Shown in pieces: positions 37,805-49,420 of a DNA stretch of 64,000 nucleotides. A program made the translations under genes and the position numbers. Positions within the stretch are counted from its first letter, which is position 1. Each line of letters opens with the position of its first letter. The notes under the pieces were generated by a model, which was not told the origin of the DNA, searched no databases, and saw only the letters and a list, made by a program, of their open reading frames with translations. The stretch comes from Beroe forskalii (Eukaryota; Ctenophora; Nuda; Beroida; Beroidae). Location: assembly GCA_011033025.1 (NCBI GenBank), contig WFMF01000318.1, positions 62,001 to 126,000 of the forward strand, read 5' to 3'.

Positions 37805-37845
37805 ATGCAACGATGTAGCCACCTGACTTTTGATCTAATTGGAAT

Positions 37846-37948
37846 TTTTTGATGCAGTTAAAAGTATCCTATCAATTTGAATGGCAGTGTTTAAAACTTG
37901 CAAACGAGGAGCTGCATAGCAGCGCAGAGTGAGCTGAGTGTTTGCAGG
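37846..37948 (+). mobile_element. Third Helitron copy, part before the transposon insertion
   Basis: TTTTTTGATGCAGTTAAAAG through GCTGCATAGCAGCGCAGAGT matches the last 110 bp of the Helitron at 15964-16434. It is interrupted at 37948 and resumes at 48903; the 5' end was not located. Confidence 0.7.
37940..37948. repeat. Target-site duplication, left copy (GTTTGCAGG)
   Basis: Identical to 48903-48911. Together they bracket the 10.95-kb element exactly at its TAGGGGCTCCCAGTG termini. Confidence 0.9.
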
Positions 37949-38525
37949 TAGGGGCTCCCAGTGAATCATGAATCGTTCCAAAACGTAGCTCATCTGAAAG
38001 AGGACGATTTGCTGATTCCGGCAAGCTAACGCTTTAGGCTGTAGCTCATTCCTTGAGGGAGATATTTGCATTTGAAAATGACCAATTTTATCACGTGACA
38101 CTGCCCCACGTGACATCTATGTAACAGCTTTCATTGAATTAACTCGCGAGCCTCTAATCAGCTACTCGGCGTTGATCCAATTAACGCCCAATTTGCATCC
38201 TCTTCCCTCCCTCCCTTTATGCAAATATGCGATCGAATTAGGTGCTGCAGCTCTCTTCCGCATCCAGTTCTGATCTCATAATGGTGTAATTGCGTGTTTG
38301 TTTAATAGCGCGTAATGAGGTTAGAAGAGGGTCTAATTTGATCCTTGTCCCCGTTTCTCGATTCTCATGTGTAAGTGTATTAAACTAATATATTGTGTAA
38401 CTGTTACGTCATCTTCATATAACAAGTAATGTAGGTATCATGATATAGGTACACGTACACATTCACAATACACAGTGATTTTACTGTGGTGAAGTTGTAA
38501 AGCCCATCGCAGAAAAATATTATAA
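37949..38525 (+). repeat. Left terminal inverted repeat
   Basis: Near-identical to the complement of 48315-48902. Weak similarity continues about 70 bp further in. Includes TGCAAATATCTCCCTCAAGG-type and CACGTGACACTGCCCCACGT segments. Confidence 0.93.
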
Positions 38526-39059
38526 AAAACGTTGTTTTATGTGGAGTAAAACTAAGAAAGTGAATTTTAAACAACGAAAATGATAGTAATACTAATAAGT
38601 CAAGGACATTGAAATTCTTAAAACATGGATTAAATAATTGCCAGTAGGTAGGTTGGTATTCAATTATATTAGTTAATAGTAATACCAAGTATGTATTGAA
38701 GGGTTTAGTAACGAGTAAAAAGTGCAAATAGCGAAAATTTCCGTTCAGCTATAATTATCTTCCTTTTTGATTAAACCGGGCGAGTGATGTTATATTGGAC
38801 CTTAACTTAACAATAGAATATCTTTGAGTCTTTGTACCGGCCGCTGAACCTTAAAACCGTTACCATGATCCTGATCCCCTTTCTACTCCTTTCAGTAACC
38901 AAACTCTAAGTCTAACAGTAACTTAAATGGTGACCTAACTGAACCCAAAAAATAGTCCTTATACCTAATTATAATTTCAAATATGTGCTGGAAAGCTGGG
39001 AGACTGACCTCTTTGTGGTTGTAGGTAATTGGGTGAATTCGGAATCGGTCGTCCCCTTT

Positions 39060-39935
39060 ACACAGAAATGCGTTATTCCGTGTTATCACAGAAAAACGCG
39101 TAATTTCGTGTTTTCACAAAAAACACTTTATAATAAAGCGTTTTTCACATAAAAACGCATAATTTCGTGTCATGTTTTGCAGAAAAACGCTTTATTTCGT
39201 TTTTCACAGAAAAACTCATAATTTCGTGTTTTCACCGAAAAACGCATAATTTTGTGTTTTCACAGAAAAACGCATAATTTCGTGTTTTTACAGAAAAACA
39301 CGTAGTTTCGTACGTGTCTTCACACTCACAGAAAAACGCTTTATTTCACGTTTTCACATATAAACGCATGATTTCGTGTTTCACCGAAAAACGCATAATT
39401 TCGTGTTTTCACAGAAAAACGCATAATTTCGTGTTTTTACAGAAAAACACGTAGTTTCGTACGTGTCTTCACACTCACAGAAAAACGCTTTATTTCACGT
39501 TTTAACATAAAAACGCATGATTTCGTGTTTTGCAGAAAAACGCTTTATTTCGTTTTTCACAGAAAAACTCATAGTTTCGTGTTTTCACCGAAAAACGCAT
39601 AATTTCGTGTTTTCACAGAAAACGCATAATTTCGTGTTTTTACAGAAAAACTCGTAGTTTCGTACGTGTCTTCACACTCACAGAAAAACTCTTTATTTCA
39701 CGTTTTCACATATAAACGCATGATTTCTTGTTTCACAGAAAAACGCATAATTTCTTGTCAGTGTCTTCACACTCACATAGAAAAACGCTTTATAACGTTT
39801 TTCACAGAAAAACGCTTTATAACGTTTTTCACAGAAAAACGCTTTATATTGTGTTCTTACAGATAACCCTGCAATTTCGTGTTTTCACAGAAAAACGCTT
39901 TATTTCGTGTTTTAACGGAATATCACGTGATTTTG
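39060..39935. repeat. 28-bp minisatellite, forward orientation
   Basis: Units of CAGAAAAACGCATAATTTCG plus TGTTTTCA, with a higher-order block of about 180 bp repeated three times (marker GTAGTTTCGTACGTGTCTTC). The same unit is inverted at 46190-46860. Confidence 0.95.
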
Positions 39936-40535
39936 CTAATTCTTCGTGGGTAATCACTAAACTACGGGTTTTTACCGGAAACTTACGCACCAACGTACTG
40001 TTTTCACCAAAAAATTAAAAATGACAAAAAGAAAAAATGACAAGCCCACGCTTTTTAGATAAATTTTCTGTTAGGAAATAACCGTTTCTTCGTTCATTTT
40101 TCATCAGAAATTATACAACATATTATTATCATATACAGGTACCATCAGTGTACTGATCACTCGAATCGTAATAGCTTGAATTTCAAATTGTTCCTGGTGT
40201 TAATTGAAGCAATGGGAAGTTGCAGAAGGTCGAAGACACAGCGGTTTAATGGAGTAATAACTATAAGATTCATCACCTACCGGGAAGTATTATCTTGCAG
40301 CCTAGACAGCTAGACCAGTTACAGACAGCCCAATTAGACGAAATTTGAATGTGTGTTTGAGCAATGATCCGAGTCGATGTTTGTCCAAGAGGTATTGTTC
40401 AAGAAACATTGTAATTGTATACAATTACTCATAAGAAATAATCAAGATTAGTATTTAAGGAGCAATTTCAATTTTATCCTTTACCTAATCTCAATTACAT
40501 TTCCATTTGAATCCGTTAACTATGTTCCACCTATC

Positions 40536-43500
40536 ATGAAATTTTCTGACTTCGTTGATGGGCCTTGTGAAGCTCTCCCGTGTTGTGTGCCCACTAACAA
40601 GGACATCATTCGATTCTTTCTGCATCACCACGAAGCTCAGACGAAGTGTCGCCTTGATGACACACTCCTTGTTACAAGTCGCTTGATCCACAGCCACTAC
40701 CGTATTTTGGATATCTACTCAGACGATGACTTGTTCGAACCTAATCATATTGCCAGGTAGGACTTTAATTAGCCAATAATAAATATATTAATATAGCATA
40801 ATATTATGAATGAAAAAAATTAATTAGGTCAATTCTATTTATCAATGAGTTAAACTTAACATTTATATTGTAGTTTGCACCTATACCTACGGTACCTATG
40901 CCGTTTGGCTAATGTCTATATCTTTTGGTTCTGGCCCGCAACTGACTTTCACTTTCAGTTTCGGGCATTGCCCTCGGGCGACTTTTTTCCTGCCTGCGGA
41001 CGCTTGCCATGTCAAGAGCCAGCAGGCACGAAAAAAGTCGCCCGAGGGCACCCTGATAATTCTGGCGGTTAAGACTCTCACAATAGTCAGATAGGATTAG
41101 GTGCAAATTAACTTTTCATACTTACCTTTTTCTGGCATTGGCAAATATTCACCGACTATCCTTGCAGGAAAACCAAAGATTTGTTTGATAGAGTGAAGAA
41201 GCGTAAGAACATGAGAAAACGAGACAAGATAGAGGCCTTTGAGGGGTATTTCAAGAAGGACTTTGTTCTTGGGAAGCTGAAACCATCCCCCTCACACTCT
41301 TCGGGTTCCAACGATTCTATCCCAGCTGTGCTTTGCGATAGCGACCCAATCAGGTTCCAGTTATACTTATAGACTACCCATAGTTAATTAAAGCTTGATC
41401 AATATAACAGCATATTTTTCTAGAAGAACATTGCAATGAACCAAGTCGAAATTGGTTCATTGCAATATACTATATAGGTACCCATATCCTATATAGGTAC
41501 CCACTACACAGGGTCGTAACTCCCGAGGGGGAAGGGCTACATTTTCAAAATGAAAAATTTCTATTCATTTTCTATACAAATTATCATCTAATACCATCAC
41601 TATTTGATCAAAAAATCAGTTTTTTAGATTGAGCACCTAAAACTACCCAAAATTTTCTGGGGGTCTGCCTCCAGACCCCCAATACTCCAATAGGGTGTTT
41701 GTTCGATGCATTGGGCTCACGGCCATTGACTAGCCCCCCTCCCCCCAAGTCTGAGATTCGAATTACGGCCCTGCTTGTACCTTAATTCTCATGACAATAA
41801 CCTATAGAGATGTCAATCAGCGGTTTGCGTAAATAAGATTTTGCCATTTATTATTGATGTTTTATGTTTCAGGAGTGTGCGGAATCATTTGGCGCACTTG
41901 ATTGACAACTCGACAGCTGTGGCGTTGGGTTCAGAAGCATCATCTGCAGAAACCAGCTCCTCTTCCTCACCTGAGCAGGTCGGAGTTCCCAGTGTTTCAA
42001 CGACACCCGAGGCAGGAGACTCCCAGAGTAGCTTCCTCACTCCCGATCTAGTTTTCCTTTTAGAGGGGATGACTAACAGTGCAACCATACCTGATAATTT
42101 GGTGAGTTTCACGTTTGGGAACCTCAAAAATTTTTATTACCCCTAGTTTTCCCATATTGTATTTGTAAGAAACTTCAAATCTGTAAGTTATGTAGATTGT
42201 TCACTATAAGACTATACATAGTCTTATAGTGAACAATCTAGTTCTACATATAACTCTTCCCAGTAGCCGAATCGGTGCCGATGAGGCCCAACTGGCGCCT
42301 TTCGGGCCCTGCTAGCGCCGATTCGGCGCATATTATATCGATACCGCACATATGCGCTGAAAGTACAGTGCCCTGAAATCTTTCTAGGGTAGTCAGACCC
42401 GATACCAGGGGAAAGGCAGTTGTAAAGTCAGTTCTCGCTAATTCAGAATTCTGGTCGGAGTACAATTGTAATCAGGTCTTATTCGTATTACACAGGTTGG
42501 CGACTCATCGGATGAAGAGGATCCTGAGTGGGCACCAAACCCCAGCGACAAGGCTCTGGAATTCCACCCACTGGTCCGCAACTTGGTTCCTGTTCTCTTG
42601 AGATGCGGCATCAGTTGCGCATCCGCAATCAAGGTGATGAAGGTGATCCACTACTCGATTGTGGAGAAAAAGACTCCCCTGACAGACGTCCACAAGATGC
42701 CTACGGAGAGGCAGCTGAGGGTCCTAGTTGGCATTGTAAGAGAAGAATTCATGACCAACATCTGCCAGCTTCACTTTAATGGTGAGATATAATTCGTTCT
42801 TTACATTAAATGCGACTTTACAGTTATACTTATAGTTTTACTTATAGTTATTTATAGTCACTTACTTTTATACGAATAACGCTAAATTATCATAATCAAA
42901 TAACATAATAAATAAATAAGCATGTTCATTAATTAATTATGTTAAATCAACCATATATTTTGCAGCCATATATTTTGACGGCAAAGAGAGCGAAAGTTTA
43001 CGATGGATAAATGGGAAGAATAAAAAGATCAAAGAAGAGACATATGCAATCGTCGCTTACCCTGGAGAAAAGAACCTAGGCTTCGTCAAGATTGACGACA
43101 AATCTGGTAAGACCTTTGGTTTCATAGTTAGGTATACCTACCTACTTATTACACTGCGTTAATCATTCACGAGGAATTAGCTCAGAACTGCCTGAATAAT
43201 TATTCATGAAGATACTAAGATAAAACCAAATTAAGTCAATCATTTGCAGCCAATCATTTGCAGCCTTTAAAGGCAAATGATTGACTTAATTAGGTTTTAT
43301 CTTAGTATCTTCATGAATTAACCACACATTCATCTTATCTGATATTTTCTCTATGTCTATAAACGAACCAGCTAAATTACTGCGGGAAAACGTTAACTAA
43401 CTGAATGTGGCTCTTCAGGGAGAGGTATCGCTGCAACGCTCATCAATTTCCTGGAGTCCCACAAAGTGGACTTCAGAAAGATAAGAGTTCTCGGAAGTGA

Positions 43501-46500
43501 TGGGACCAATACTCTAACTGGTTACAAGGTGCCTATAGTATAAACATTGATTGCTAACATTTGCCCTAGATTAATAACAGTTTGAGTTTCCTCGATTCTC
43601 AATATTACCTTCAATCATAATGTTTAAATATCATTTGAAATTCCTATATGCTTTATATTTTTTCTTCACAGGACGGGTCTATAAGACATCTGCAAGATAT
43701 GATAGGATATCCTTGTTTTCCATCCATTTGCCTCCTTCACGCAGTGGAGCTTCCTCTCAGAGCACTCTTCTGTTTGATTGATGAAGTAACTGAAGGTCAG
43801 TTGATCATAATCATTAACTCTTTAGAGCTGTATAATTATATGCGCCTAGAGGCGGTATCGAAAATAGGAGCTCGATTAAAGCGCCCATAGGCAGTAGGCA
43901 CTGTGTTTTTGCCGCATTATAACGGTTCATCTTACTATATATAATGCGTGTTGTTAATATATATATATATGTGGTTGGCAGGCGTTAGCAAATTCAAGTA
44001 GGCAACGAAATTATTCTTTAGTCGTGTTGCAAAAACTTTATAATAAATCAGAAAAATAATGAGAAATTTTTTCGTCATTCTGAGGGGCGTGGGAGGCCAC
44101 GCCCTTTTTTCGCAAAATTAAACTTTCGAATTTTTTCAAAATTCCTTCGCCATCAAGTTGCTTATGATGAATAAAAATTTTGAGAATTTTGTCCGAATTA
44201 TTAAGTCACCCTGAGGAGCGTGGTAGGCCACGCCCTTTTTCGCAAAAAATTAAACTTTCGAATTTTTTCAAAATTCCTTCGCCATCGAGTTCTTTATGAT
44301 GAATACTAATTTTGAGAATTTTGTCCGAATTATTGGGTCACCCTGAGGGGCGCGGGAGGCCACGCCCTTTTTTCGCAAATATCAAAGTTTTGAATTTTTT
44401 CACAATTCCTTCGTTATGGAGTTGCAATATTGGGTTACCGTTGGGGGCGTGGGAAGCTTTTTCACAGAAATTCAAGTTTCGAATTTCCCCTCCAAACTCG
44501 CACGGTCAAATCACTGTAAGGGACATGTGGCCTTTAGCTCATGCGGTTATTGCGGCTGCCATCATTCGCCGTCCGTAGGACGGGAACCGACTAGTAGCAC
44601 TAATAGTATTTTGATCAATATTTACACTGAGGCCGAGCCGAGTGCAGATTAAAAAACTATTTACCATACGAGGTCTAAGCTTCTAAGTTTGTTACTTGCA
44701 TTGTGCCACATAAGTCGGTGATAACTTTTACTTAGTAATCATATTCCGATTCGCAATTGTTCAAAATGGTAAATAAATTAATCAAAGCCATGAAAAAATT
44801 GGATTATTATTCCAGGTAAAGGACAGTTTGGTGGGAGACTCGGGAAGAAACTCCACTCCCTCGACCCAGAGACTGCTCCTGTGGGTCCTTTTGGTAGGAT
44901 AAGTTGCCCTGACTTTCCTAGGCTGCCACCACACGTGGAAGCCGGGCTAAGTGAAGATAACAAGACTCTCTACAGACTTTGCATAGCCTGTATTGATGGT
45001 GAGGGCCATGATTTTGTTGTAAAGAAGATAAAATGATACCGGAAATCAATGACACGTCAATTATGGTTGCCTTAATGCACCTTATAACTACTTCAAAATT
45101 ATGTCCTCCAATACTCTCTCATGAAAGAACCATATTTCCAGGCTACGTCCCAGAGAGTCTTGCTACGAAAATCATAGGAGTGATGCACCACGCGAGATGG
45201 ATCACACTCGGCAGCAGGATTCTCCGGTACTACATCTCGGGGCCGGTGATAAGGGCCGAAGGGGTTGAAACCCTTGCTCGCTACATTGTTCAGGTGTATT
45301 ACAAGGTGAGGAAAATTCTTCTAAAGTAGGTTAGGTAGGTATTATTGTACTAATAATTATTTGATAATGACAATCATGACTTATCTTTACCTACTTAGCT
45401 ACTTGTTACTTTGTTATGGTTTAAAAGATTATAGTTAGGTAGTACGTTTTGGCAATTACGACAATGAGGTTGTGTTTGGTATATGAGACATACCCCACTT
45501 TAAAATTGTCGCTGAAAACAAATTAAAATTAGCACGATTTAACGAGCGATAGAAATTGCAGTCCGGTATTACGTAGGAGTTGCCTTCAATCGGCCTTTAA
45601 TTTCCCATATAGGGATATTCATAACATTATAACATTTATCATTATGTAGATGTTTTTATGTAGGCATATTATGTTGATGTGGCCCCAAAAACTTAAAATG
45701 TTTCAGCAACATGCCAGGATCAAATTGAAACCTCTCATAGAGGATGGTCCTGGGCATGTCGTCGAAGCCCTGAAGTTGAATACGGAAATTCAACTTGCTC
45801 CTAAGCAGCGGAAGGCAGTGCTCAAGAAGATTGAGAACAACAGTTACTTCGCTCACCCGGAAGCAGTGATTGTAGCAAGCCTTGGTATGTATATAATAAA
45901 GAGTTTTAGTGACTTTAATTGGAATTTCGAATCTTATTCTTAAGAATATCTCAATCCTTAAGGCAGTGGGTGGTAATCATTATTAATTATAAATCATGAA
46001 AGTATGAAAATATGTGAAACGTGATTAAACATGACAATTTCCGGTGAAGAACCTCCTAAGGTGACTTTTTATGAAGGCACATCATTTCGTGATTTGCTGT
46101 GAAAACACGCAATGGTGCGTTTTCCGTGAAAATACGTCGGTAGTGGTACAGGATTTTCTTAAAAAATATCTTTCTACGAAAACACTAATTACTAACGCGA
46201 TTTTCTGTGAGTGTGAAGACAAGGAATTACGCGTTTTTCTGTGAAAACACGAAATTATGCGTTTTTCTGTGAAAAACGAAATTATGTGGTTTTCTGTGAA
46301 AACACGAAATTATGCATTTTTCTGTGAAAACACGAAATTATGCCGTTTTCTTTGAAAACACGAAATTATGCGTTTTTCTGTGAAAACACGAAATTATGCG
46401 GTTTTCTGTGAAAACACGAAATTATGCGGTTTTCTGTGAGAACACGAAATTATGCGTTTTTCTGTGAAAACACGAAGTTATGCAGTTTTCTGTGAAAACA

Positions 46501-47893
46501 CGAAGTTATGCAGTTTTCTGTGAAAACACGAAATTGTGCGGTTTTCTGTGAAAACACGAAATTATGCACCTTTTGTGAAAACACAAAATTACGGGTTTTT
46601 CTGTAAAAACACGGAATTAAGCGTTTTCTGTGAAAACACGAAAGTACGCGTTTTTCTGTGAAAAAACGAAACTACGAGTTTTTCTGTTAAAAAAACGTAA
46701 TTACGCGTTTTTCTGTGAAAATACGAAATTACGCACTTTTTACGTGAAAAACGAAATTACGTGTTTTTAACTTAATGTGACACAAAATTAAAACGTGCAT
46801 TTCTGTGAAAACTCAAAATTACGTGAAAACACGAAATTTGGCATTTTTCCGTGAAAAGAACGAAGTAACGTGATTTTCATTGAAAAGATTTTCCCTGGAA
46901 ACATCTCATGAAACATTCATCGAACACAAATTCACGTGTAATCGACAGAACGTTTATGATATGTGAACAATGAGTATGAATAGTAAGAAATTGTAACATT
47001 TCATTGTGTTAATTGCAGCCGATAAAAACCCAGCTGTCAGGGCTCAAGGAGTCACCATCTGCAAGGAAATAGTCAGGCTTGAGGAAAAGGGAATGAACAG
47101 ACCCATGCGGAGGACTACGAAGCCACGAGTTTTTTGCAAGCCGCAGATAAACGTGTATGCAAAGAACATTTTTGAGCTGCCCCTCTACAACTCAGACGTC
47201 GACGACAATGCAGCGGTCCGCCGGGAGAGATCTTTTAAGTCTTACGAGCAGTTCGGACTGTGCTTCAAAACCAACTGCGGTAAGTTTTGTATTGTTGAGT
47301 TGTTGCTGCCGCAAATAACCTTTCAAACAATCCAGATATCTGCAGCCCCAATCCCCATAAAATCTTATAAAGTATTCGTATATTATTATTTGCTATTCGG
47401 ATTAGAAAGGATGAAAACCATCGAGGGGGGAGTCCGACATCTCAATTCACCTCACGGCACGATTCCCCTCACGGCATATTTATCTTAGAGTTAGATAACC
47501 ATTATAGAGTTAGAGGCAAACTATTATGAGATAATTTGTCGTTAGGTGAATTGTCGTACGTGAATACTGAAAAGCTGAAATATCCGTTCCCCATCGAAGG
47601 AAAAACTAATTATTAATTTTGCAGCTGAGGAACAGTGGGCAGCTGTGACGATCCCCATGATTATACGGGAAGACCACAACAACATGGATCCACAGCAGTT
47701 TGATCGCTTCCTGGACGAGCCCCTGCGAACTGCTTACCCCTGTCATCAACAAGCTGTTGAGAGGGCGGTGGCGCTGATGACAGAGGCGAAGCTGAAATGT
47801 GTCAGTGACAGTGGAAAGTCTGGCCATATGATTGCCGTAGCCGAGGAACGGAAGAGGGACCCAATGACATCCAAGAAAAGGAAGATGATATAG
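40536..47893 (+). CDS. Transposon-encoded 12-exon protein, putative DDE/RNase H-like transposase (783 aa)
   Basis: Exons: 40536-40756, 41168-41353, 41873-42101, 42496-42781, 42966-43106, 43419-43528, 43672-43795, 44816-44998, 45142-45305, 45707-45884, 47019-47279, 47625-47893. All introns are GT-AG and the phases agree, giving 2352 coding bases with no internal stop. The N-terminus (VPTNKDIIRFFLHH) and a basic Lys/Arg segment may bind DNA; a Ser/Glu/Pro linker follows (exon 3). The core has AIYFDGKES (exon 5), VLGSDGTNTLTGYK (exon 6), CLLHAVELPLRALF (exon 7), HHARWITLGSRILRYY (exon 9) and NNSYFAHPEAVIVASL (exon 10). It belongs to a family common in arthropods and other invertebrates that carries GCDGTN, LHxxELPLR, RWxTxxxRILRLY and YFxHPE motifs. 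The two Asp of YFDG and GSDGTN are candidate catalytic residues; the third acidic residue is not assigned. Inference: it mobilises the surrounding element. Confidence 0.85.
41430..41466. repeat. Perfect 15-bp hairpin in intron 2
   Basis: ATTGCAATGAACCAA and its exact complement separated by 7 bp. Confidence 0.9.
42193..42240. repeat. Perfect 23-bp hairpin in intron 3
   Basis: TAGATTGTTCACTATAAGAC-TAT and its exact complement separated by AC. Confidence 0.95.
43198..43320. repeat. 46-bp-arm foldback in intron 5
   Basis: TTCATGAAGATACTAAGATA-AAACC...AAGTCAATCATTTGC on the left and its near-exact complement on the right; the loop holds a short direct repeat (CAATCATTTGCAGC). Confidence 0.9.
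44075..44470. repeat. About 125-bp tandem repeat with GGCCACGCCC in intron 7
   Basis: Three to four units: GGGGCGTGGGAGGCCACGCC, then TTTTTTCGCAAAATTAAACT, then TTCAAAATTCCTTCGCCAT. The CACGCCC word also marks the 60-63 kb repeats. Confidence 0.9.
46190..46860. repeat. 28-bp minisatellite, inverted orientation
   Basis: CGTTTTTCTGTGAAAACACG-AAATTATG units, complement of the array at 39060. It lies in intron 10 of the transposon gene. Confidence 0.95.
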
Positions 47894-48314
47894 GCTTTAA
47901 AACTTGACACTGACAGATAAAATTGCATTTTTGGAACCTTTGAAAGTTTTAAAATTCGACGATTAAATAGGCATTAATTTATTAATCCGAATCTAAAGTT
48001 AGATATAGGTAAGAATTTTATTGTTCTCGGCATGATTCGAATTAATAGATTGAAGAATCAAGCAACCTACCTGTCCTATATTTTCTTGTAAATTGATTAG
48101 GTATATTTTCTATTTCTTTGTCGTTCTACTGGATTAAACTAATCATTAATATCAATGATTTAGAATTATAAGCGTATAACCTATATTTGCATATTTGTCA
48201 GTTTTCTATTTGTTATAATTTATGAATTTCATGGATTTCATACGAAGCATTGTTTGAGATTTTCTTTTAGAATTTAACTTTTTTATTCAACATAAAACAA
48301 TATTTTCATGATAT

Positions 48315-48902
48315 TTTTCTGCGATGGGCTTTACAACTTCACCACAGTAAAATCACTGTGTATTGTGAATGTGTACGTGTACCTTATATATCATGATACC
48401 TACATTACTTGTTATATGAAGATGACGTAACAGTTACACAATATATTAGTTTAATACACTTACACATGAGAATCGAGAAACGGGGACAAGGATCAAATTA
48501 GACCCTCTTCTAACCTCATTACGCGCTATTAAACAAACACGCAATTACACCATTATGAGATCAGAACTGGATGCGGAAGAGAGCTGCAGCACCTAATTCG
48601 ATCGCATATTTGCATAAAGGGAGGGAGGGAAGAGGATGCAAATTGGGCGTTAATTGGATCAACGCCGAGTAGCTGATTAGAGGCTCGCGAGTTAATTCAA
48701 TGAAAGCTGTTACATAGATGTCACGTGGGGCAGTGTCACGTGATAAAATTGGTCACGTGATAAAATTGGTCATTTTCAAATGCAAATATCTCCCTCAAGG
48801 AATGAGCTACAGCCTAAAGCGTTAGCTTGCCGGAATCAGCAAATCGTCCTCTTTCAGATGAGCTACGTTTTGGAACGATTCATGATTCACTGGGAGCCCC
48901 TA
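48315..48902 (-). repeat. Right terminal inverted repeat
   Basis: Complement of 37949-38525. Differs by a 20-bp tandem duplication (GGTCACGTGATAAAATT) near 48747-48775 and a few small changes. Confidence 0.93.
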
Positions 48903-48928
48903 GTTTGCAGGCCCAATGGGCCTGCTAG
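48903..48928 (+). mobile_element. Helitron 3' terminus after the transposon insertion
   Basis: Starts with the right target duplication GTTTGCAGG. The perfect stem CAGGCCCA-AT-GGGCCTG is followed directly by CTAG and then T, as in the 16434 terminus. Confidence 0.85.
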
Positions 48929-48934
48929 TTTATC

Positions 48935-49420
48935 ATAATAGCCACATGAAGTGCATGCACTTAATTAATTAATTAGTCTAATACACCCCTACTTGTGAGC
49001 CCAATGTGCATGCACTTGAAAGTTGAATATCAATAACTTTATTACTATACTACAAAAAACAAAAACAAAAATCTAATCACGACTTTAATAATAATGATCT
49101 AAAACTTAATAATGATCTTTAACTTAACAACACTACTATTCACAATCAAATTCGAGCTAACTCAATGAATTTGGCACTGATAATGATTTGAGTACTTTGT
49201 ATTAAAAAGTCAGCTCGTTGTGGTTAATCATGTTGTGAAACTTGGCAATTACAGTGTTTTATTAAAACATTAAAAAACAACAACAACAATAAAATTATAT
49301 GTCGACAAACTTAATTCTATAATGTATAATCTTGCAAATCTAGTATTTTATAATAATGTGGATTTATTTAAAAATTGATTTCACCCATTTCCAGTGCACA
49401 AAACTTGGAATTTGCATTTG
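48935..49420. other. No gene seen
   Basis: AT-rich; nothing supported. Confidence 0.35.

Follow-up and report, generated by a model that had tools for sequence, protein, structure and literature searches.

A complete DNA transposon with long inverted repeats in the ctenophore Beroe forskalii, carrying a candidate transposase of a widespread unassigned protein family

The stretch of DNA analysed here (the window) comprises 64,000 nucleotides of Beroe forskalii (assembly GCA_011033025.1, contig WFMF01000318.1; C379:62001-126000), and the genome searched amounts to 216 Mb in 1,134 contigs. The window contains an element of 10,954 bp (37949..48902, plus strand), delimited by its borders, repeats and empty sites, which is bounded by long terminal inverted repeats and encloses a gene of 12 exons. 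The terminus TAGGGGCTCCCAGTG is present at 37949 on the plus strand and at 48902 on the minus strand, as described in the initial annotation. The left repeat, which begins with this terminus, extends over 603 bp (37949..38551, plus strand) and the right one over 622 bp (48281..48902, minus strand). The two are 96% identical overall, with zero substitutions in the first ~570 bp of both, the differences being one 17-bp and one 3-bp indel. The near-identity of the repeats reported earlier is therefore retained, and their length is corrected from about 0.58 kb to ~0.60-0.62 kb.

On both sides the element is flanked by the 9-mer GTTTGCAGG (37940..37948 on the left and 48903..48911 on the right), a perfect duplication for which any extension is impossible. 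This assignment relies on the sequence and on the comparison with empty sites, for which 200 bp of each flank were joined, with the element and one 9-mer removed, and run against the genome (40 of 1,859 candidate places scored). The search listed 44 matches, two of which are the window itself, and 40 of the 42 non-self matches span the junction. In all eight paralogous empty sites fetched, GTTTGCAGG occurs once and is contiguous with both flanks. Since these sites are uninterrupted and have a single GTTTGCAGG, the paralogous empty sites demonstrate directly that the element inserted into a copy of a common repeat, with duplication of 9 bp.

The host repeat itself (window 37824-37948 and 48903-48940) is present in high copy number. 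Most of the fetched copies have a terminal hairpin GCAGGCCCAACGGGCCTGC followed by CTAG, after which T is found in seven of eight. We presume that the hairpin and CTAG resemble a Helitron 3' end.

The putative transposase gene extends from 40536 to 47893 and is composed of the following exons, all on the plus strand: exon 1, with the ATG (40536..40756), exon 2 (41168..41353), exon 3 (41873..42101), exon 4 (42496..42781), exon 5, with D312 (42966..43106), exon 6, with D382 (43419..43528), exon 7, with C411xxH414 (43672..43795), exon 8 (44816..44998), exon 9, with R512-W513 (45142..45305), exon 10, with E600 (45707..45884), exon 11 (47019..47279), and exon 12, with Q737, E740, R741 and the stop codon (47625..47893). 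All 11 introns are of the GT-AG type, the phases agree, and the product is a protein of 783 amino acids (aa) with a single terminal stop. The gene is open from ATG to stop, as had been claimed, and with borders, repeats and duplication also in place the description of the locus as an apparently intact transposon of about 11 kb proved correct.

A second copy of this gene is located on contig C1024, inside an element bounded in the same manner. A query spanning window exons 4-7 gave matches of 78-86% for exons 4, 5 and 6 at C1024:209421-210401, within this element, and a query of exons 11-12 matches the C1024 element together with two more copies on this contig. The gene of the C1024 element has all 12 exons in the order and phases of the window gene, with 11 of 11 introns GT-AG; its exon 4 begins three codons earlier and some exon lengths differ. 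It encodes an uninterrupted protein of 780 aa, in which 618 of 773 aligned residues (80%) are identical to the window protein. Nucleotide differences between the two genes reach 0.75 at synonymous sites (pS) and 0.11 at nonsynonymous sites (pN); the synonymous sites are saturated, and a ratio of the pN/pS type is unreliable at saturation. The comparison points to strong selection at the protein level across a long separation. Because the same intact gene is found inside a second bounded element with homologous ends, the gene travels with the ends.

On C1024 (157043-272636), three gene-bearing copies are located within ~116 kb, as if they had arisen by local jumping or segmental duplication. 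Diverged relatives of the gene, recognised exon by exon, are present in the same genome on C165, C632, C99, C780, C227, C567, C270, C592, C647 and C183, and those on C165 and C632 seem to belong to a single family present twice.

To find other copies, the genome was searched for the 25-bp terminus pattern TAGRGGCTCCCASTGAATCATGAAT with at most three mismatches, which gave 20 sites and none in a reversed control. Ten of these termini pair into five complete elements: the window element (duplication GTTTGCAGG, 9 bp) and those on C236 (3,495 bp; CTCTGAGTG, 9 bp), C281 (3,536 bp; GGATAGCG, 8 bp), C714 (4,368 bp; TACGTACG, 8 bp) and C1024 (205223-214998, 9,776 bp; CACAATTC, 8 bp). All five duplications are different, two of them being 9 bp and three 8 bp long. 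The support that the initial annotation had suggested looking for, multiple copies that share their ends but differ in their duplications, is thus present in the genome, and the duplication length that it gave holds for the window element and is widened to 8 or 9 bp for the family. The four complete elements other than the window element have a sister terminus, TAGAGGCTCCCACTG. The outer parts of the arms can be aligned among the window, C1024, C236 and C714 elements, and those of the window and C1024 elements are homologous (81% over the outer 133 bp).

Recent movement of the window element had been deduced from the near-identity of its termini. Conversion between arms can make inverted repeats near-identical, and the identity of one element's own arms is for this reason weak evidence of recency. 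Better evidence is provided by the arms of the C236 and C714 elements, which are up to 99.6% identical at different sites and thus favour recent movement; terminal identity as such does not serve as a clock. In the C236, C281 and C714 elements, no match was found either to the two exon DNA queries (exons 4-7 and exons 11-12) or to the Mnemiopsis protein described below, which is why these three look non-autonomous.

The best relative of the window protein comes from the ctenophore Mnemiopsis leidyi and is 57% identical to it across most of residues 200-783; this Mnemiopsis protein gives only partial matches (27-71%) in the genome analysed here. The first protein search also gave the placozoan Trichoplax. 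A single query with a member from thrips, in which 8,000 candidates were scored, revealed 613 proteins at E <= 1e-10; among the 120 matches listed are those of thrips, moths, beetles and a psyllid, and the named ones are hypothetical, uncharacterized or unnamed. The family is thus widespread and mostly left without a name, as the initial annotation supposed. The name YbaB given to one relative is in our view a misannotation. When the protein database was searched with a profile, five proteins were obtained, fewer than with single sequences. In virus contigs, 63 stretches fit a pattern and none of them encodes a relative.

Two 770-aa open frames on C2 (716530 and 682908) weakly match a relative of the transposase, P0016 (25-26% across residues 149-432 of the latter), which also has a weak match to a 491-aa open frame on C547.

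Residue conservation was analysed in an alignment of 157 proteins, which included 155 of 157 fetched entries (those of at least 400 aa) and the window and C1024 proteins. D312 is present in 156 of the 156 proteins with a letter at this position, D382 and C411 in all 157, and H414 in 156 of 157; at position 600, 155 proteins have 153 E, one D and one G. R512 is present in 156 of 156 and W513 in 155 of 156, and E417 is invariant or nearly so. The family consensus includes a cysteine-rich N-terminal block that the window protein does not have. A tree of 26 representatives groups the window and C1024 proteins with that of Mnemiopsis in a single clade (100/100).

The near-invariant D312, D382, C411xxH414 and E600 display the D-D-[C/D]xxH-E order of the C/DxxH group, and a CxxH motif after the second D is given as the signature of the hAT/P/MuDR/Kolobok/Dada group in PMC3706591 and PMC10045372. 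Here the second D follows the first at 70 residues, with CxxH at +29 and E at +218 from the second D. P transposase has D230/D303/D339xxH/E531 at the corresponding places and human THAP9 has D304/D374/D414/E613 (PMC8230255). Among the systems compared, the nearest spacing is therefore that of P/THAP9 (70 and 218 here versus 73 and 228 in P and 70 and 239 in THAP9).

This spacing makes it possible, if rather unlikely, that the element belongs to the P superfamily (P element/THAP9) as a strongly diverged member, with the D-D-[C/D]xxH-insertion-E arrangement and ~8-bp duplications, lying beyond the reach of Pfam. The likeness includes the order of the residues, 70-73 residues between the two D, an E ~220-240 residues past the second D, and an insertion of ~185-190 residues (415 to ~597 here, by our own estimate, versus 339-528 in P transposase, the latter from PMC8230255); three of the five elements also have 8-bp duplications. 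Against this reading, P-type Pfam models gave no match at E up to 5 in the window protein or at E up to 1 in 32 relatives, the motif is CxxH and not DxxH, the inverted repeats are hundreds of bp long, and two of the five duplications are 9 bp. A genome-wide search with the P profile is neutral here, as it gave zero matches in this genome and in every control genome alike. A divergent hAT-like transposase, in which the RW of the insertion would correspond to the tryptophan of Hermes and the QAVER block at the C-terminus to the hAT dimer motif, appears improbable to us. It would explain the almost invariant R512-W513 within the predicted insertion, and we assume that HARWLT resembles the RW motifs of hAT and QAVER their SER motifs, although the distance from the second D to E is presumably shorter here than in Hermes. 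A conserved Trp319 is indeed located in the Hermes insertion domain, as stated in PMC8230255, the C/DxxH group is also shared, and three of the five duplications have 8 bp. However, the hAT dimer domain PF05699 was detected at 23 places in the genome and at none in the five elements, and it is absent from the window protein and the 32 relatives; the repeats here are long, and hAT duplications are ~8 bp according to PMC3706591 whereas two of five are 9 bp here.

MuDR/MULE duplications are 8-10 bp long and the inverted repeats of these elements are often long, and a divergent element of this type would fit the long repeats (hundreds of bp), the 8-9 bp duplications and the CxxH motif. Repeats of arthropod MULEs reach 1,193 bp (PMC13359780). 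The MULE catalytic domain PF10551, however, matches 46 places in the genome, none of them in the five elements, and neither the window protein nor the 32 relatives have it, which leaves this assignment with little probability. Dada elements belong to the C/DxxH group too, with 68 residues between the two D and a many-exon gene in an element of ~4.7-11 kb; they are described in PMC3706591 as having 6-7 bp duplications, small RNA gene targets and no terminal inverted repeats, in contrast to the 8-9 bp duplications and long terminal inverted repeats here. Polinton/Maverick was rejected because its duplication is 6 bp (PMC10045372) and not 8-9 bp. For Zisupton/KDZ, Merlin and Kolobok, no Pfam transposase match was obtained in the window protein, the 32 relatives or their consensus. 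We presume that Pfam includes transposase models for these three. Since no P-type, hAT or MULE domain was recognised in it, these superfamilies serve as models of its mechanism and not as its classification.

An explanation of another kind takes the gene for one of host origin, or for a passenger, in an unrelated inverted-repeat element moved by another transposase. The named family members are unannotated predictions, which leaves room for it, and to our knowledge no activity has been proven for the protein family. Nevertheless, the gene, with 80% identity of its protein, is shared by two elements whose arms are only ~81% identical (outer 133 bp) and whose sites and duplications differ, and D, D, CxxH and E are conserved across the 157 proteins, so that this explanation has a very slight probability in our view.

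We therefore prefer to interpret the window element as a complete and apparently autonomous DDE (aspartate-aspartate-glutamate) cut-and-paste transposon of the C/DxxH group and a candidate for a new superfamily, a reading in which we have high confidence. It builds on what may be read from the sequence itself: the borders, the insertion and its duplication, the linkage of the gene with the ends, the conserved acidic and CxxH residues, and the strong constraint on the protein between two elements. The proteins of this widespread animal family, to which no function had been assigned, are very likely transposases; the initial annotation had argued so from the bounded element, and its argument is reinforced by the second element with the same intact gene and by the conserved D, D, CxxH and E. 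The designation as a candidate new superfamily, in place of filing under an existing name, follows from the fact that no named superfamily's profile matched, in agreement with the earlier statement that the superfamily is unclear. Six motif strings of the family were not found in the papers searched, and no described superfamily is recognisable as matching the element in the papers covered (Repbase entries lay outside this search). The broader proposal, that more than 600 uncharacterised proteins are the transposases of one more C/DxxH lineage, a eukaryotic DNA transposon superfamily not yet described, which would be distributed from ctenophores and placozoans to insects and characterised in this genome by long repeats beginning with TAG(A/G)GGCTCCCA and by 8-9 bp duplications, we regard as evenly balanced.

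Several observations weigh against these interpretations. Half of the 20 termini are unpaired (those on C187, C436, C490, C614, C933, C991, C111 and C214 and two extra ones on C1024). The exact terminus type of the window element was found elsewhere only as a solo arm on C187, which is 96% identical to the window left arm across positions 1-603 and has no partner end and no gene match in 205000-234400; the window's subfamily is thus represented in this genome by one intact copy and this trace. No transposase model of Pfam matches the window protein, the 32 relatives or their consensus, and the sole recurrent low-E match is a HEAT repeat in five of the 32 relatives (best E 0.0019). In PDB no convincing sequence relative was found, the profile of the 32 relatives giving one chance-like match (E 0.038). 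An RNase H fold is suggested by the motifs, and a propensity plot, itself very coarse, is only compatible with it. E600 is the proposed third catalytic residue, with E740, conserved as strongly (154 of 154), as the alternative. Finally, at several positions that are near-invariant elsewhere in the family the window protein has a different residue (T333, F347, E429, N481, T483, H550 and A551), and its clade with the C1024 and Mnemiopsis proteins has a long branch (2.32), so that its properties need not hold for all relatives.

If the element is indeed a cut-and-paste transposon, its mobility may be outlined as follows. The transposase, with a predicted helical insertion between CxxH and E600, would bind the long inverted repeats, presumably in their outer part, and bring both ends together, after which double-strand cuts would free the element. 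The latter would then be joined to the target via staggered cuts 8-9 bp apart, the repair of which would leave the 8-9 bp duplication, and the shorter elements could be mobilised in trans. Movement by cut-and-paste rather than copying, as well as current activity, are presumed here.

Inside the element, two arrays of a 28-bp tandem repeat are located 5' of exon 1 (39048..39933, plus strand) and within intron 10 (46043..46857, minus strand), the second being inverted relative to the left one. Intron 7 includes three repeats with a spacing of 131-132 bp (window 44065-44399) and a GC-rich palindrome GGCGTGGGAGGCCACGCC, and a stretch related to these repeats is present on C720 (L018).

Some of the candidates for further copies were rejected. 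The terminus match on C393 lies in a G-rich repetitive stretch, and nothing else in region 103000-122800 of this contig matches the element. C244 and C421 (L060-L063) possess the 15-bp terminus with two mismatches, but their ends are AGGCACCCC and their duplications apparently 6 bp, which assigns them to another family; two end pairs of the type AGGCACCCC...CAGAGGCTCCCAGTG are located there 5.5 and 8.9 kb apart, with an inner terminus similar to the one of the window element. Twelve fetched loci (L010-L021) have nothing but positions 254-580 in common with the repeat and represent another family as well, with the exact end AGCCCCCACCCAGAATG in eight of the 12 and 6-bp duplications in all four loci with both ends, one of which (ATATAT) is in simple sequence. 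The elements of this AGCCCCCACCCAGAATG family (L012, L013, L015 and L020, on C436, C508, C1091 and C1, plus others) are ~4.1-5.5 kb long and Polinton-like by their ends and duplication length. Part of their long arms matches positions 254-431 of the window element's repeat with 83-88% identity, which exceeds the similarity between the two subfamilies of the window element in that stretch. Since identity is higher across families than between subfamilies, the repeat sequence has apparently been exchanged between unrelated elements.

For a large family of proteins known as hypothetical or uncharacterised, the two bounded and independently inserted elements of B. forskalii suggest a likely function. 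Repbase distinguishes 23 superfamilies of eukaryotic DNA transposons (PMC10045372). Should the fold bear out a separate lineage, this list would grow by one, the annotations that count these proteins among host genes would need correcting, and a candidate mobile element with known ends and transposase would become available for testing in cells.

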